Assembly (NCBI GenBank): GCA_938743325.2
Contig: OW568871.1
Span: 248,001 to 312,000, forward strand
DNA: 64,000 nucleotides
From: Pycnococcus provasolii
Taxonomy: Eukaryota; Chlorophyta; Pseudoscourfieldiophyceae; Pseudoscourfieldiales; Pycnococcaceae
Direction of reading: 5' to 3'
The notes below the pieces were generated by a model. That model did not search any database. It was not told the DNA's origin and saw nothing but the letters and a program-made list of their open reading frames with translations. A program made the translations under genes and the position numbers. This document shows positions 18,042 to 62,944 of the stretch, one piece after another. Positions within the stretch are counted from its first letter, which is position 1, and each line of letters begins with the position of its first letter.

Positions 18042-18804
18042 TTAGCATTGCGAGTCGCCGGATTCACCTTTGCTGTTGGACTTGATGAAGCCAGGTTTGG
18101 TAATCTTCAAGGAGAAGGTTGGGTCCGTCATTTCCTCTGCCCCGGTCACAGCATTGATGATTGAAATGATAAGAGCAAACCACACGTAGATGATGCTGAG
18201 AAAACCGGTGATGATCCCAAGGTTACCAGCATAACCAAATGTTGCAAACAGAGATCCAAAAAGATAAAAGAACGCCATGCGTGCCCATGATCCCTGTTTT
18301 ATTTAGTGTGTTAGGCTACGTCAGTGATTGGTTTCTTTTTAATTTTTGGTGGTTAGAGGTAGACTTACGGCAATGAAGTTCATCTTGAAGTTCGCAAAAT
18401 GGCAGAGCACCATGATGATGCCAAACATGAGTGGACTCCACACATCAAGGAACACATCTGGACGCAGCGTGAACACCTGTTTTATTTAGTGTGTTGGGTT
18501 GTTGTTAGTGATTGTTGTTGATCTGCCATGGATGGTTAAAAAATTGACTTACGTTTCGCCAGCGCGGCTGTCCCAAAGTGAATCCTCCAGCGAACGGACC
18601 GTTGACATCAGCGACGGGATTGTCACTGTTAGCCCACACAAGCGATGGACCCACACAGTCTTGGACTCGATCATCACAGAAGTCGACAAGAACGTTGTCG
18701 AGATGGACGAAGCCAATGACCATGACCAGTAACCCCACAAAGAGCGAGTAGGCACGGATAAAGCCCGCGAAGCAGTTGGTACCACAGTTGATTGTAGACG
18801 CCAT
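18042..18804 (-). CDS. Tetraspan membrane protein, three exons
   Basis: Exons 18553-18804, 18369-18476 and 18042-18293 join in phase 0 to give 203 residues. Both introns have GTAAGT donors and CAG acceptors. Four hydrophobic helices are visible: SLFVGLLVMVIGFV, SPLMFGIIMVLCHFA, MAFFYLFGSLFATFG and GIITGFLSIIYVWFALIIS. A Cys-bearing luminal loop lies between helices 1 and 2, and a short Lys/Ser-rich cytosolic tail ends in Cys. Size and layout resemble the COPI-associated (TVP18-like) membrane proteins of the Golgi, a guess from topology and the RAYSLFVGLLV start, not a proven match. The start context is preceded by a long homopolymer tract at 18888-18927. Confidence 0.85.
18294..18368 (-). other. 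Intron 2 of the tetraspan gene (introner-like)
   Basis: 75 nt, starts GTAAGTC and ends ACACACTAAATAAAACAG. It shares its end, its start and an internal CAATCACT with intron 1 of the same gene. Confidence 0.9.
18477..18552 (-). other. Intron 1 of the tetraspan gene (introner-like)
   Basis: 76 nt, starts GTAAGTC and ends ACACACTAAATAAAACAG. It is alignable along its length with intron 2, which is unusual for neighbouring introns and suggests a common source. Confidence 0.9.
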
Positions 18805-31230: not shown

Positions 31231-31420
31231 CGTTTTTGGTTTTGTTTTTTTTGTTTCGGGGAGGGAGGGAGGGAGGGAGGGAGTTGCCTGGTGGCGTGGC
31301 GTGGCGGGGTGGAGTTCCAACTCCGGGGGATCCACGCCGATAGACAGACGGCGGCGGAATGGATTTTACCGTCCTCAGGCTCTACTTCGACCACGGCCAA
31401 CAACATGTCCAGCGTACACA

Positions 31421-31441
31421 GGGGATACCGGTTCGGAAAAA
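31421..31441 (+). promoter_or_regulatory. Shared leader element of permuted tRNA genes
   Basis: GGATACCGGTTCGGAAAAA (within a 21-base block) lies nine bases before the tRNA-Ser 3' half. The same block with one change precedes the tRNA-Leu gene. Its ACCGG can pair with CCGGT in the trailer of the Ser gene. Confidence 0.55.
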
Positions 31442-31450
31442 CTTGTTGAC

Positions 31451-31574
31451 ATCCACTGGAGCAATCCGCGGAGGTTCGAACCCTTCAGGTGTCGTAACTT
31501 TTTTACCGAGAAGTTTAGCTAAATCCATGGCGACGCAGACACTTTGGCCGAGTGGTTAAGGCGGTGGACTTGAA
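31451..31574 (+). tRNA. Permuted tRNA-Ser(UGA), copy 1
   Basis: The 3' half (31451-31494) lies upstream of the 5' half (31538-31574). Joined at the 37/38 boundary they form a full class II cloverleaf: acceptor GACACTT with AGGTGTC (one G-U), D-stem GCC/GGC, anticodon stem GTGGA/TCCAC around loop CTTGAA plus A (anticodon TGA), variable arm GGA-GCAA-TCC, T-stem GGAGG/CCTTC with TTCGAAC loop, and discriminator G. A 43-base intervening segment separates the acceptor ends. A T9 run at 31596-31604 is a good Pol III terminator. Oddly, a T6 run (31499-31504) lies within the intervening segment. Leader AACT and trailer AGTT can form a short helix next to the splice sites. No ordinary tRNA-Ser reading fits either half alone. 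Confidence 0.87.
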
Positions 31575-31595
31575 TCTGGAGTTATCCGGTAGTTC

Positions 31596-31604
31596 TTTTT
31601 TTTT
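31596..31604 (+). terminator. Pol III T-run terminator
   Basis: Nine T residues 21 bases after the 5' half of the permuted tRNA-Ser, copy 1. Confidence 0.7.
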
Positions 31605-31787
31605 GCGCGACGTACAAACTGTGACGTGGCGACAGGCGTGTGTGTGTGAGAGGCCTTGAGGTTGGTGGTGGCCGCAAGATTGACTAGTGTCGTTAAGAAC
31701 AAATAAATCGAAAATGCATCAAATCAACAATTTAAAATGTACAAACTACAAGTTACAAAACTTTCAGGCACGTATCGTCTCACACAA

Positions 31788-32651
31788 CTACACGCCGGCG
31801 GCACCCCCGTGCAAGAGAAGTGCGCGTGCCGTGCTCTTCGCGCGCGCTGAGCTGTCGCCGTTCGCATGCGACCGGCTCGAAGGCACACCTCCAGCTGAAG
31901 ACTTCAGGTTAAGAGCCGGAGGCTGCTGATGCCTTTGCTGTTGCGTCGTCGCCTTTGTCATCATCAGCTCAAGCTGGCCTTTCAGCGTGTCTCGCTCGGC
32001 GCACGCGTCTCGCTCGCGGCGCTCGGAAGCGAGACGGTCCGCACGACAGCGTGCCACCTCCGCCTCGAGCGCACGCTCGCGCTCGGTGCTAGCCGCAAGC
32101 CTCGTCTCGGCATTGCTCAGCGACATGCGTGAGGACTCAGCAGATGCCTTGGCGGCGTCTAGGTCGCGCTGCATTGTTGCGTGCCTGGCGCCGCTTTCCT
32201 CGAGGCGTGCCGCCTGAACGGCAGCAGCTTGCTTGCTCGCATTTGCCTCAGCACTCGCCTTGGCCGTCTCAGCGGAGGCGAGCCAAGCACCCCAATTGGA
32301 CGCGCTCGCCAGCTTGCTTCGAATCTCAGCCGTCTCGCGTCGCAGGCTGTCCACCTCCGCACTCAGCGCGTCGCGCTCACTTGTCAGTGTGTCCATCTGC
32401 CTTGCACTTTCGTCCCGTTCTTTCGTCACCGTTTCGAGTTTGGCTGACAGCTTGTCCGCCTCCTTGCTCGCCTTTGTGTTTGCCTCCCTCTGCTCCGCGA
32501 CCGTCGCAAGCAGCCGGTCGCGCTGACTAGCCGCCTCGTCGCGCGCTCTCCGCGAGCTGTCGAGCTCCGCCGCGGCAGCATTCAGCTCATATGGCGCTGC
32601 CGAATAGACAAAGTCTATAACGTTACTGAATTGAGCGATCTTAGCAACCAT
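31788..32651 (-). pseudogene. Truncated copy of coiled-coil gene
   Basis: The frame encodes 287 residues. From ELNAAAAELDSSRRARDE to the end GGAAGV it is almost identical to the C-terminal 265 residues of the complete gene at 35278-36534. The first 22 residues (MVAKIAQFSNVIDFVYSAAP) come from unrelated sequence past the duplication breakpoint at 32589, so about 150 N-terminal residues of the parent are missing. It is still open and could be expressed if a promoter exists, but most likely is a fragment. Only a few base changes separate the copies, so the duplication is recent or maintained by conversion. Confidence 0.75.
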
Positions 32652-34539: not shown

Positions 34540-34910
34540 CCGCGGCGGTTGAACTAAGGCATTAAATCGATTTCGCGATTTTTCCGACAATCGAGATATT
34601 CGGACCGGGAGCGTTCGCTCTTCCGCGTTACTCGAAGAGGTCAAGAGGGACGATCGCACGTGTGCACACAGCCACCGTCGAACTCACTAGGAGTTCATTC
34701 TTCTTGTAATTGTGTAACGACATTAATTGGTTCTTGCACCTAAGAAGATTTACGTACACTCGTCTATTACTTTACGTACACACACCTTTTTCCTCTCTCT
34801 TAAGTACCCGTGTAGTTTCCAACACGCCGATAGAGAGACGGCGGCGGAATGGATTTTACCGGAGTCCTCCTCTACTTCGACCACGGCCAACAACATGTCC
34901 AGCGTACACA

Positions 34911-34931
34911 GGGGATACCGGTTCGGAAAAA
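34911..34931 (+). promoter_or_regulatory. Shared leader element of permuted tRNA genes, copy 2
   Basis: Identical to the block at 31421-31441, at the same distance from the tRNA-Ser 3' half. Confidence 0.55.
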
Positions 34932-34940
34932 CTTGTTGAC

Positions 34941-35064
34941 ATCCACTGGAGCAATCCGCGGAGGTTCGAACCCTTCAGGTGTCGTAACTTTTTTACCGAG
35001 AAGTTTAGCTAAATCCATGGCGACGCAGACACTTTGGCCGAGTGGTTAAGGCGGTGGACTTGAA
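34941..35064 (+). tRNA. Permuted tRNA-Ser(UGA), copy 2
   Basis: Identical in sequence to copy 1: 3' half 34941-34984, intervening segment 34985-35027, 5' half 35028-35064. The same T6 run lies within and a T9 run lies at 35086-35094. The absence of any change in the two tRNA halves fits either recent duplication or selection. Confidence 0.87.
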
Positions 35065-35085
35065 TCTGGAGTTATCCGGTAGTTC

Positions 35086-35094
35086 TTTTTTTTT
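35086..35094 (+). terminator. Pol III T-run terminator
   Basis: Nine T residues after the 5' half of the permuted tRNA-Ser, copy 2. Confidence 0.7.
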
Positions 35095-35277
35095 GCGCGA
35101 CGTACAAACTGTGACGTGGCGACAGGCGTGTGTGTGTGAGAGGCCTTGAGGTTGGTGGTGGCCGCAAGATTGACTAGTGTCGTTAAGAACAAATAAATCG
35201 AAAATGCATCAAATCAACAATTTAAAATGTACAAACTACAAGTTACAAAACTTTCAGGCACGTATCGTCTCACACAA

Positions 35278-36534
35278 CTACACGCCGGCGGCACCCCCGT
35301 GCAAGAGAAGTGCGCGTGCCGTGCTCTTCGCGCGCGCTGAGCTGTCGCCGTTCGCATGCGACCGGCTCGAAGGCACACCTCCAGCTGAAGACTTCAGGTT
35401 AAGAGCCGGAGGCTGCTGATGCCTTTGCTGTTGCGTCGTCGCCTTTGTCATCATCAGCTCAAGCTGGCCTTTCAGCGTGTCTCGCTCGGCGCACGCGTCT
35501 CGCTCGCGGCGCTCGGAAGCGAGACGGTCCGCACGACAGCGTGCCACCTCCGCCTCGAGCGCACGCTCGCGCTCGGTGCTAGCCGCAAGCCTCGTCTCGG
35601 CATTGCTCAGCGACATGCGTGAGGACTCAGCAGATGCCTTGGCGGCGTTTAGGTCGCGCTGCATCGTTGCGTGCCTGGCGCCGCTTTCCTCGAGGCGTGC
35701 CGCCTGAACGGCAGCAGCTTGCTTGCTCGCATTTGCCTCAGCACTCGCCTTGGCCGTCTCAGCGGAGGCGAGCCAAGCACCCCAATTGGACGCGCTCGCC
35801 AGCTTGCTTCGAATCTCAGCCGTCTCGCGTCGCAGGCTGTCCACCTCCGCACTCAGCGCGTCGCGCTCACTTGTCAGTGTGTCCACCTGCCTTGCACTTT
35901 CGTCCCGTTCTTTCGTCACCGTTTCGAGTTTGGCTGACAGCTTGTCCGCCTCCTTGCTCGCCTTTGTGTTTGCCTCCCTCTGCTCCGCGACCGTCGCAAG
36001 CAGCCGGTCGCGCTGACTAGCCGCCTCGTCGCGCGCTCTCCGCGAGCTGTCGAGCTCCGCCGCGGCAGCATTCAGCTCAGCCTCGATGCCGTCGCGCGCG
36101 TCTTGCTCCTCCTGCAGCGCGCGTTCGAGCTGCGACTTTCCCATGTCTGCAGCGGCTGCGGCGTCTGCAGCCTCTTCGAGCTCGCGTCCGACGTCGTCGA
36201 CCATGGCGCTCGCGTGCTCCGCTTCTGCGAGCGCCTCGTCATATCTGGCTCGCATGCGCGCCATGTCATCCTTCGCACGTTTCGCCGCCTTGTCGGCAGC
36301 CTCTGCCCTTTTGTTGGCTCTCGTTTCCGCCTCTCTCGCGTCTCTCTCTCTCGCGCACATTTCCGCCACCATGGCCGCGGCGTCCGCGAGAGCTGCTTGG
36401 AGCTGCGTCCAGTCCGCGACGTTGCTCTCGACGATTCTGAGGACGTCAAGTTGGTCGGCGAGTTGGCGTAACGACGTGCGCGCGGCGGTGGCGAGCTGCG
36501 CGGAGTCGTACTGCGTCTGCGTCTGCGGCGCCAT
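35278..36534 (-). CDS. Coiled-coil protein, unknown
   Basis: This 418-residue protein starts at an ATG (MAPQTQTQYDSAQLATAART). Residues about 20-370 are an almost continuous Ala/Glu/Arg-rich heptad coiled coil (REAETRANKRAEAADKAAKR, LDSSRRARDEAASQRDRLLA). A single break near 235-245 has SNWGAWLAS. The tail is Gln- and Ser-rich. It is probably structural, perhaps cytoskeletal or basal-body related, but nothing fixes a family. The promoter has AACTAAGGTTAAC at 36590-36603. The 3' two thirds are duplicated at 31788-32589. Confidence 0.8.
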   Translation of the reverse strand: MAPQTQTQYDSAQLATAARTSLRQLADQLDVLRIVESNVADWTQLQAALADAAAMVAEMCARERDAREAETRANKRAEAADKAAKRAKDDMARMRARYDEALAEAEHASAMVDDVGRELEEAADAAAAADMGKSQLERALQEEQDARDGIEAELNAAAAELDSSRRARDEAASQRDRLLATVAEQREANTKASKEADKLSAKLETVTKERDESARQVDTLTSERDALSAEVDSLRRETAEIRSKLASASNWGAWLASAETAKASAEANASKQAAAVQAARLEESGARHATMQRDLNAAKASAESSRMSLSNAETRLAASTERERALEAEVARCRADRLASERRERDACAERDTLKGQLELMMTKATTQQQRHQQPPALNLKSSAGGVPSSRSHANGDSSARAKSTARALLLHGGAAGV

Positions 36535-60428: not shown

Positions 60429-60437
60429 GCAAAAAAA
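60429..60437 (-). terminator. Pol III T-run terminator
   Basis: Nine T residues on the minus strand, three bases after the 5' half of the permuted tRNA-Leu. Confidence 0.75.
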
Positions 60438-60440
60438 AAC

Positions 60441-60541
60441 GACCTAAAACCAACGCCTTAACCACTCGGCCAAATAGTCCTGACAGAAAGAATTCCGTTG
60501 ATGACTACTGCAGGGTTCGAACCTGCGCGATTTCTCATTGG
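60441..60541 (-). tRNA. Permuted tRNA-Leu(UAG)
   Basis: Read on the minus strand, the 3' half (60541-60500) precedes the 5' half (60477-60441), with 22 bases between. Joined at 37/38 they form a full class II tRNA: acceptor GACTATT with AGTAGTC (one G-U), D-stem GCC/GGC, anticodon stem TTGGT/ACCAA, loop TTTAGG plus C (anticodon TAG, the standard Leu loop), a short variable arm, T-stem GCAGG/CCTGC with TTCGAAC loop, and discriminator A, as expected for tRNA-Leu. The intervening segment has no run of four T, so Pol III could read through. Leader and trailer can pair around GCGAAAA and TTTTTTGC beside the splice sites. Confidence 0.9.
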
Positions 60542-60576
60542 TGAATTTTCGCGACTGATCCTCTCGACCAAAAATT

Positions 60577-60597
60577 CCTTTTTCTGAACCGGTATCC
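60577..60597 (-). promoter_or_regulatory. Shared leader element of permuted tRNA genes
   Basis: GGATACCGGTTCAGAAAAA, one change from the block before tRNA-Ser, 35 bases upstream of the tRNA-Leu 3' half. A TTTATATTTT lies about 10 bases farther upstream. Confidence 0.55.
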
Positions 60598-60697
60598 CCT
60601 TGACACAAAATATAAACGGCAACTTTCAACACTTTTTCCGTTTTTGCCTCCCTTCGTCTTCTGATATCATCGTTTCCTCATCATTTCCACCTTCGCC

Positions 60698-62944
60698 ATG
60701 CCCCCTGTGTCGCCGTCAACATCCATGCCTGCAGCAGCCGCAGCCAACTCACCGCACGCGTTCCTGCGCAAACTCGCCAAGCTGCCAACGCCCACGTCAG
60801 CCTGGTTCACGCCACGCTCGCCTTCGTTCCACGTACACCTCACCCAAAAAGATCTCCACGCCAACATCCAGCGTGGCTTCATAAGGTCGTTCGACGCACG
60901 TTCCCTAAGCCCGCTCGGAATTCCACGCCCAGTCGAGCAAGACGCCGCGCTCGTTGCCGTGTCGCCTCATAACACTACGGTCGTCTTGAAGAAAAACGAA
61001 AAGAAAAGTCACACGGTTGAAATATGGGATGCCGAGTATGGCCGAACGCACGTGACAGAGATCCCTGAGACGGTGCATGGCACGGTCCACGCCGCAACCA
61101 CGTTCGAGAGCAACGCCTTCAGCTCGTGCGCAAAAATGTTCGTGTACACCGCGGAAGCTCCCAAGTGCAAGCCAACAAAACACGTTGGAAATCCGCAGGA
61201 GATTCCTCAGTCCTCAGAGGACTCGTCCAATAACAACGACTCTTCCTCCTCCTCCTCTAGCGCTCTATTGACGTGGGACTCCACTCGACAATACGAGCAA
61301 ACGTGGGGAGAAGCCAGCGGCGGCGCTGTCAAACCTACGCTCTTCACACTGAATTTGGAGGATGGCACGGTGAATCGTGTACAGGGCATACCTGACGGCG
61401 TTGCTGTTGGTCAGGCTACGTTCACGCCCGACGACAAGGCACTTGTGTGCACCGCGTGGGACGACACGAGTAAGTTGGGAATTACGTTCTGCTTTAACCG
61501 TCAAAGCCGCCTATTGCTCGTTCCTCTGGGTTCTCAAGATTCACAAGGCTCACAAGGCTCTCATCAAATCTTATCGCCGACAATTCCCAGCGCCTTGTCT
61601 CCTGCATTCTCGCCGGACGGCAAGAGCCTCGTCTTCCTCAGTCATGCAGACACGCTCGCCAGTGGAGTTCACATGAGCGATGCCACCCTGCACACCATGC
61701 CGTGGCCGCCAAAGGATGATGCTACTATTACTAAGGTGCCGATTCACGGTGCGACGGAGTACCTGTACATGACGGGACGTCTGAAAACAGAGGTGAACTT
61801 TGTCACGCCAAATCGCATCGTCGTCACGTCCATCTTGAGAAGCTGTATCGCGCTGCTCGACATTGATTTAACATCAGGCGAAACGTCGATCGTTCCCCCG
61901 TGCGATGACAATGAGGTGCTCGCGGCACCGAAGAATTCAGATGATCTCGCGCAGTGCGAGAGCTCTCTGCTCGCATCCGATGGAGACGGAACCTGGATTG
62001 TGCGATTGTCCGACCCGCTGTCTCCACCTATTCTTGCCAAACTCACGCTCGATGACGCATCTTGGACATGGCAAATACTCACCAAGCCCAGTCCCGATGT
62101 GCCGCCGCCAAAGGGAGCGTACTGGGGATGCATATCGCTGCCGGGCGAGGAGGAGTCCCTCGTCGTTGGGTCGAGTGTTGTTCTTCGACCAGCTGCGGAC
62201 GTTGAGGTGAAGGGAGTGATTCTGCTTCCTCACGGCGGACCTCACACCACCTCGACGGCGCAATTCTTCGCCTCCACGCGTCTTTTCCTCGAGATGGGAT
62301 ACGCCGTCATCTTGGCAAATTACCGAGGCAGTCTGGGCTTTGGGCGACAACTTCAAATGCAGCTTCCTGGTAACGTCGGTCGACTGGATGTGCGAGACTG
62401 TGTCGCGGCTCTGGAGAGTGGCATGAAAAAAATGGACATCGATGATGCTTTGCCAAAAGCGATCTTCGGAGGTTCTCACGGAGGATTTCTGGGCGCACAT
62501 CTCGTAGGACAGCATGCTGATCTCTTCAAGGCTGCTATATTGCGCAATCCCGTGACAAACCTCGTTTCGATGGCATCGACCACTGATATCCCTGACTGGT
62601 GCTGCGTCGAAGCTTTCGGCAAACCTGCGGACGTGGAGCAGCAACCAAGTGCACGCATGGGTGACGGCTCATTTCCTCCATCGCCTGAGGCTCTTGCCCG
62701 CCTTCACGAGGTGAGTCCTATTGCACACGTGGACAACGTCAAAACGCCCATCTTGCTCTTGCTCGGTTCCGGTGATGAGCGAGTGCCGGTGGAACAGGGC
62801 CTACAATATCGTCGCGCCTTGGCGATGCGTGGTCAAGACGTCGAGACGTACCAGTATGATGGCGAGGGCCATTCTCTTGCCAAGCCTCAGACGGAATTTG
62901 AATGCCTTTCCCACACTATTCGCTTTCTGGATGAAAAGATGTAA
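60698..62944 (+). CDS. Acylaminoacyl-peptidase-like S9 hydrolase
   Basis: Serine peptidase of 748 residues, near the usual length of about 730. The N-terminal half (about 60-480) should be a beta-propeller with weak repeats (ATFTPDDKALVCTAWDD, PAFSPDGKSLVFLSHAD). The C-terminal half is the alpha/beta-hydrolase domain: LLPHGGPHTTS (oxyanion region), YRGSLGFG, nucleophile elbow IFGGSHGGFLGAH (S593), GSGDERVP (D693) and GEGHSL (H725). Triad order and motifs match family S9C. Such enzymes release N-acylated amino acids from blocked peptides and help clear oxidised proteins in cytosol or plastid. A short Ala/Pro-rich N-terminus could be a weak targeting sequence. TGTAA follows the stop. Confidence 0.93.
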   Translation: MPPVSPSTSMPAAAAANSPHAFLRKLAKLPTPTSAWFTPRSPSFHVHLTQKDLHANIQRGFIRSFDARSLSPLGIPRPVEQDAALVAVSPHNTTVVLKKNEKKSHTVEIWDAEYGRTHVTEIPETVHGTVHAATTFESNAFSSCAKMFVYTAEAPKCKPTKHVGNPQEIPQSSEDSSNNNDSSSSSSSALLTWDSTRQYEQTWGEASGGAVKPTLFTLNLEDGTVNRVQGIPDGVAVGQATFTPDDKALVCTAWDDTSKLGITFCFNRQSRLLLVPLGSQDSQGSQGSHQILSPTIPSALSPAFSPDGKSLVFLSHADTLASGVHMSDATLHTMPWPPKDDATITKVPIHGATEYLYMTGRLKTEVNFVTPNRIVVTSILRSCIALLDIDLTSGETSIVPPCDDNEVLAAPKNSDDLAQCESSLLASDGDGTWIVRLSDPLSPPILAKLTLDDASWTWQILTKPSPDVPPPKGAYWGCISLPGEEESLVVGSSVVLRPAADVEVKGVILLPHGGPHTTSTAQFFASTRLFLEMGYAVILANYRGSLGFGRQLQMQLPGNVGRLDVRDCVAALESGMKKMDIDDALPKAIFGGSHGGFLGAHLVGQHADLFKAAILRNPVTNLVSMASTTDIPDWCCVEAFGKPADVEQQPSARMGDGSFPPSPEALARLHEVSPIAHVDNVKTPILLLLGSGDERVPVEQGLQYRRALAMRGQDVETYQYDGEGHSLAKPQTEFECLSHTIRFLDEKM

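Follow-up and report, generated by a model that had tools for sequence, protein, structure and literature searches.

A probable working, circularly permuted tRNA-Leu(UAG) gene in Pycnococcus provasolii and its permuted and intron-bearing sister genes

The window, a 64,000-base stretch of DNA that was analysed as a whole, comes from the prasinophyte Pycnococcus provasolii and carries on its minus strand the two halves of a tRNA-Leu(UAG) gene. Read along that strand from 60543 to 60443, the 3′ half (tRNA positions 38-73; 60502..60543) forms the first part of the gene and is followed by a spacer of 22 bases (60480..60501), which bridges the 3′ and 5′ ends of the acceptor stem and has a longest T run of three, and then by the 5′ half (tRNA positions 1-37; 60443..60479). 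Three bases past the 5′ half lies a stretch of nine T residues (60431..60439), likely to be an RNA polymerase III terminator. The permuted order of the halves is confirmed as real. A preliminary description had placed the gene at 60441..60541 and named no strand; the locus was right, with its ends off by two, the actual gene occupying 60443-60543 of the minus strand, and the order it gave, 3′ half before 5′ half with 22 bases between them, agrees with the exact coordinates of the parts. The neighbour of the gene on the opposite strand is an acylamino-acid-releasing enzyme-like peptidase gene (60698-62944, plus strand).

When joined at 37/38, the halves give a sequence of 79 bases which ARAGORN (linear mode) identifies as tRNA-Leu(tag). 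Its acceptor stem (7/7 pairs), anticodon stem (5/5) and T stem (5/5) are fully paired, and the anticodon loop TTTAGGC, the T-loop TTCGAAC and the discriminator A were all read in it, as the preliminary description had proposed for the rejoined cloverleaf. The consensus residues T8, A14, D-loop GG, T33, TTC and A58 are also present by reading, and the gene has no intron besides the permutation. Placing the junction at 38/39 is equally possible and would give the loop TTTAGGT. Both halves lie in permuted order on the same strand and give a complete tRNA on rejoining, the spacer falls within 1-74 bases with no terminator between the halves, and a TATA-like stretch upstream is matched by a T run downstream. 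These features support assignment of the locus as a circularly permuted tRNA-Leu(UAG) gene of type II, with its junction at 37/38 and a bulge-helix-bulge that appears partly formed.

In its genomic order the window gave no tRNA with ARAGORN, all three of its permuted genes being missed, and no Rfam match above cut-off; a sub-threshold Rfam tRNA match (17.1 bits, cut-off 29) covers the T arm and 3′ acceptor strand of tRNA-Leu(UAG). Folding of the unjoined region was uninformative (z -0.81). A permuted-tRNA descriptor run on both strands of the window returned three matches, these being tRNA-Leu(UAG) and two copies of tRNA-Ser(UGA) on the plus strand. The first copy lies at 31451..31574 (3′ half 31451-31494, 5′ half 31538-31574) and the second at 34941..35064 (3′ half 34941-34984, 5′ half 35028-35064), the halves being identical between the two. 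Both are carried by a direct duplication of approximately 1.2 kb (31381-32554 and 34871-36044; 99.7% identical). That ARAGORN is blind to all three genes illustrates how much standard searches can miss.

Upstream of tRNA-Leu(UAG), on the minus strand, is a TATA-like stretch, TTTATATTTT (60607..60616), with GTGTCAA directly after it (60600..60606), the latter containing a TGTCA-like word which is regarded as a lead only. Such a word, often GTGTCA behind an AT-rich stretch, was seen 16-75 bases before the 3′ half in 14 of 16 permuted genes, a loose pattern counted with no control, and is a possible start element of permuted tRNA genes. The next bases, GGGGATACCGGTTC (60586..60599, minus strand), form a promoter-like motif repeated genome-wide, with 62 exact copies and 526 within two mismatches, against 112 for the reversed word. 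Its candidacy as a tRNA promoter element was ruled out, since many of the 30 exact-copy loci read (of 62) have no visible tRNA, indicating a general promoter-like motif and not a tRNA-specific one. It has the appearance of a core promoter element in this genome, found upstream of tRNA and other genes alike.

A run of 7-12 T residues, starting 1-83 bases past the 5′ half, is found in 22 of 22 permuted genes rebuilt from the genome. No run longer than T4 occurs inside tRNA-Leu(UAG). Three of the 22 have an internal run of at least six, namely Ser(UGA) with T6, Thr(UGU) with T7 and Leu(UAA) with T8. These runs would need read-through, and they count against a simple terminator rule. The T runs and the TATA-like stretch together suggest that tRNA-Leu(UAG) is transcribed by RNA polymerase III.

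Bases at the end of the leader (60544..60552, minus strand) pair with two stretches, 32-34 of the anticodon loop and, more distally, 2-4 of the trailer. In this gene, helix H has three of its four pairs, with one A-A mismatch, and helix h′ has only three pairs, one of them G-U. Cleavage of the junction by the splicing endonuclease leads to the expectation that leader bases -3 to -6 pair with loop bases 32-35, and these positions were compared across genes, with leaders swapped among genes as the control. Among 16 genes, 39 of 64 possible pairs were formed, against a swap mean of 31.1 (P 0.0006); of the eight offsets tried no other gave a P below 0.05, the neighbouring offset 4 reaching P 0.07. 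With 21 genes the count was 53 of 84 against a swap mean of 41.8, a value as high being reached in none of 5000 swaps, and among seven offsets the neighbouring offset 4 was weakly positive (P 0.039). The signal is one across genes: helix H has one of four pairs in Ser(UGA), Arg(CCU), Phe(GAA) and Gly(UCC), and several sisters have one or two of four. The genome also contains two matches to tRNA_int_endo (PF01974), the catalytic domain of the splicing endonuclease. An hBH motif has been reported for green algal permuted precursors in the available part of a review (PMC3978253), and the pairing seen in Pycnococcus fits this motif.

Loci picked by A-box and T-arm words were fetched and read, and in this way 22 nuclear tRNA genes were rebuilt as permuted, each parsed with a 37/38 junction, as against four linear ones; with loci chosen by motif, 22 to 4 is no unbiased ratio. 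The permuted set comprises Leu (UAG, CAA, UAA), Ser (UGA, CGA, AGA, GCU), Thr (UGU, CGU), Arg (CCU, UCG, UCU), Val (AAC, CAC), Ala (CGC, AGC), Lys (CUU, UUU), Phe (GAA), Gly (UCC), Asn (GUU) and Glu (UUC). After rebuilding, ARAGORN calls the expected anticodon in all 22, each of which has a distinct anticodon, with a length of 74 bases for Asn and Thr(CGU). Stems were computed for 16 genes: Thr(UGU) and Arg(CCU) have one acceptor T-T mismatch each, and the other 14 have no mismatch in the acceptor, anticodon and T stems. The stems of the six further genes were judged by eye, which showed a single mismatch in the acceptor stem of Arg(UCU) and another in the anticodon stem of Leu(UAA). The spacers range from 5 to 71 bases. 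The linear nuclear genes are Trp(CCA) and Tyr(GUA), both called by ARAGORN and both with introns, together with elongator Met and Leu(CAG), identified by eye. Seven tRNA-like loci were partly parsed and left out of the set, namely Arg(ACG) (L097/L136), L102, L139, L140, L141, L142 and L149.

Reversed words served as controls for these searches and often gave as many places as the words themselves or more, so matches were judged by reading and not by count. One A-box word had 24 places (49 reversed), of which four were organellar, 11 were read and the unfetched ones were five second copies and four with three mismatches. A T-arm word had 60 places (113 reversed), 11 of them organellar and the rest read or second copies; 33 regions were fetched, 26 of which had no tRNA by eye. 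Another T-arm word had 57 places (31 reversed), four of them organellar and 53 nuclear, and 19 of the latter were fetched. A further A-box word had 12 (25 reversed), with one region fetched. Many tRNA-related matches occur in pairs on opposite strands, approximately 2-8 kb apart, on contigs C3, C7, C9, C15, C20, C23, C25, C26, C28 and C34, and on C13 two tRNA genes are repeated on one strand approximately 6 kb apart, in two and three copies. Unlike the paired matches on other contigs, tRNA-Leu(UAG) was found in one copy only.

An intact linear tRNA-Leu(UAG) gene, raised in the preliminary description as another possible source of the transcripts, was sought in the genome (assembly GCA_938743325.2, 46 contigs) and was not found within the limits of motif searches, which miss divergent or intron-split copies. 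A query of 261 bases around the gene matched only its own locus, and its T arm with acceptor strand, allowing up to three mismatches, matched itself and three Ser loci only. A class II A-box word (up to three mismatches) had 17 places in the genome against 20 for the reversed word. Eight of these are tRNA genes, all permuted, these being Leu(UAG), two each of Ser(UGA), Ser(CGA) and Ser(AGA), and Ser(GCU); the other nine were judged by reading not to be tRNAs. A second form of the word, with 10 places (seven reversed) of which seven were fetched, added three genes, the permuted Leu(CAA) and Leu(UAA) and an intron-bearing linear Leu(CAG). Among the genes found, the UAG anticodon thus appears to be read by the permuted tRNA-Leu(UAG) alone. 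A Leu(AAG) gene was not found in the motif-based genome searches, which means that the tRNA census is incomplete. Likewise, a genome search with RF00005 scored 63 of 587 candidates, so its three nuclear matches are no census.

To rebuild eight of the 22 permuted genes, 20 introns have to be removed, one to five per gene, all of them GT-AG and 69-80 bases long. They are scattered over the acceptor stem, the D and T arms, the variable loop and the anticodon arm. In 12 cases the rebuilt tRNA allows a single boundary, which is GT-AG, the exons having been chosen with the GT-AG rule known and not blind. Some of these introns have relatives outside tRNA genes. A protein-coding gene of the window (minus strand, ATG at 18804, stop at 18042) becomes one open frame once two GT-AG introns are removed, one of 75 bases (18294..18368) and one of 76 bases (18477..18552). 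The 75-base intron belongs to a family shared with introns of tRNA-Ala(CGC) and tRNA-Ser(AGA): it aligns end to end with intron 2 of Ala(CGC) (73 bases; z 17.1, 60 shuffles) and over most of its length with the intron of Ser(AGA) (z 8.6, 60 shuffles). The 76-base intron is similar to an Ala(CGC) intron (z 9.0). An 18-base word of this family has 111 genome matches within three mismatches, including 18 exact ones; its reversal has 19. A second family joins an intron of Lys(CUU) to one of Phe(GAA) (z 24.7). At least two of the 20 tRNA introns are therefore in a repeated family common to introns of the window's protein-coding gene, with most of the 20 having no family assignment. A third family, GTAAGTTCTACTTTCATACCAACTACAAC and variants, was noted by eye in L139, L141 and L149 on contigs C13, C20 and C40, and in the permuted Arg(ACG) locus L136 (C7:701850-702700), also by eye, two GT-AG introns in the variable loop may flank an exon of three bases.

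The GT-AG introns of the tRNA genes look like introner-type spliceosomal introns, for which the homology to introns of the protein-coding gene is the strongest independent evidence. The rival view, which concerns the sister genes and not tRNA-Leu(UAG), is that the splicing endonuclease, and not the spliceosome, removes the interruptions as introns of the tRNA type. The ectopic tRNA introns of Cyanidioschyzon are taken as endonuclease-cut in the portion of the review at hand (PMC3978253), and Arg(UCG) has one 32-base interruption that lacks GT-AG ends and is not counted among the 20. However, the uniform ends and lengths of the remaining 20, the unique boundary in 12 of them (non-blind as it is), the full alignment of Ala(CGC) intron 2 with an intron whose removal helps to restore a single open frame, and the excess of the 18-base word over its reversed control all count against this view, and we consider it unlikely.

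For tRNA-Leu(UAG) itself, three other explanations were weighed against that of a working permuted gene. T-arm and D-arm motifs are short and common, and since in several searches the reversed control matched at least as often as the motif (24 against 49, 60 against 113), a single motif match means little. The full permuted descriptor, however, which recovers this gene and is the kind of finder that the preliminary description had named as a check, gave no match in any of 40 dinucleotide-shuffled windows. Chance is thereby refuted as the source of the resemblance, and its probability is negligible. The locus might instead be a dead, rearranged pseudogene, with a missed linear gene supplying the tRNA. 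Copies split by introns within a search motif would have escaped, and the linear Leu(CAG) did escape the first A-box search and was found only with the second form of the motif. Against such a relic stand the three long stems free of mismatches, the T run in its place, the absence of a close second copy from the genome, and the same permuted architecture in 21 other anticodons, which relics would not keep; we regard it as improbable. Finally, the halves could be joined in trans from separate transcripts, in the manner of split tRNAs, and the internal T6-T8 runs of the three sister genes could indeed terminate a transcript at that point. In tRNA-Leu(UAG), the halves share a strand, the 22-base spacer between them has no T run above three, and the only T9 follows the second half, making joining in trans very improbable.

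The reading we prefer, with a probability of about nine in ten, is that the locus works as a tRNA-Leu(UAG) gene, circularly permuted and present once in the nuclear genome of Pycnococcus provasolii. Given the gene order, stems, T run, endonuclease domains and cross-gene pairing signal that were observed, the following pathway may be proposed. Since permutation reverses the order of the internal A and B boxes, RNA polymerase III would initiate from upstream elements; its transcript would run from the leader through the 3′ half, the spacer and the 5′ half into the trailer and end at T9. In the folded precursor, a cloverleaf, the spacer would close the acceptor stem and the anticodon loop would be open. 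Cleavage at 37/38 by the tRNA splicing endonuclease would be followed by circularisation of the RNA by a ligase, after which RNase P and tRNase Z would excise the spacer and CCA would be added. A circle pathway of this kind has precedent in red and green algae according to the part of the review available (PMC3978253), and tRNA-Leu(UAG) is presumed to be processed by the same pathway as other algal permuted tRNAs. For this gene, we infer transcription, the polymerase, the circle, the order of processing and the use of the tRNA from sequence.

The gene would seem to represent the simplest form of a general pattern in which most of the nuclear tRNA genes parsed are permuted at 37/38. Some Pycnococcus tRNAs would apparently also have to lose one to five spliceosomal-type introns, and in such sister genes the spliceosome would need to act either before these processing steps or at some point between them. 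Taken jointly, we lean towards permutation being the normal state of nuclear tRNA genes in Pycnococcus provasolii and towards mobile spliceosomal introns having invaded them, such that polymerase III precursors would need both the spliceosome, for up to five introns, and the endonuclease circle.

Permuted tRNA genes are established in Cyanidioschyzon and some prasinophytes, as the preliminary description had stated and as the accessible part of the review documents (PMC3978253). They have so far been a curiosity of few algae and one archaeon, with 34 genes from six algae and one archaeon, and 3 to 11 per genome, in what is available of that 2014 account (PMC3978253). Its table, as far as accessible, includes Leu(TAA) and Leu(CAG) and lacks Leu(UAG) (PMC3978253). 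In its architecture, the gene resembles the type II genes of Ostreococcus, Micromonas and Cyanidioschyzon merolae, which, by the same partial source, have the 3′ half first, a junction at 37/38, a spacer of a few tens of bases, an upstream TATA-like or AT-rich stretch and a T run past the 5′ half (PMC3978253). Class II tRNAs (Leu, Ser) are often permuted in those algae (PMC3978253, in the part available), as they are in Pycnococcus.

Pycnococcus differs from the algae of the 2014 review, so far as its available text extends, with 22 permuted genes rebuilt in one genome against 3 to 11, and with GT-AG introns across the cloverleaf in eight of these, whereas green algal tRNA genes are described there as having almost no atypical introns (PMC3978253). 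A comparable case of detection is that of Auxenochlorella (Trebouxiophyceae) in 2025, where, in the part of the report available, a standard tRNA search was incomplete and permuted genes were then detected (PMC12636532). The main text of the genome paper of Pycnococcus provasolii CCAP190/2 does not contain the word tRNA (PMC11130579). Among the titles and abstract beginnings of the open full-text literature searched, no report was found of permuted tRNA genes in Pycnococcus, nor of spliceosomal introns in tRNA genes. Permutation itself is known; within the literature covered in this way, what looks new is the Leu(UAG) member, permutation as the rule and the spliceosomal-type introns. A genome with a seemingly permuted majority makes the reason for permutation testable through expression, gene replacement and relatives.

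The introns themselves resemble the introners of Micromonas and others, which, in the partial sources available, are near-identical GT-AG introns of uniform length at many loci. In the sister tRNA genes all 20 introns are GT-AG, and for one family many similar copies were found, protein-coding genes included. Introners have been described, within those same sources, in protein-coding genes, whereas in Pycnococcus they would also lie inside tRNA genes. Introns of mRNA are usually the province of the spliceosome, and those of tRNA the province of an endonuclease and a ligase. If tRNA genes do tolerate spliceosomal introns, the division between the two eukaryotic intron systems would be crossed in one gene set. 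The spliceosomal introns of yeast U6 snRNA genes would be a precedent for polymerase III transcripts; unlike these, the introns of Pycnococcus lie in tRNA genes, with up to five in a single gene.
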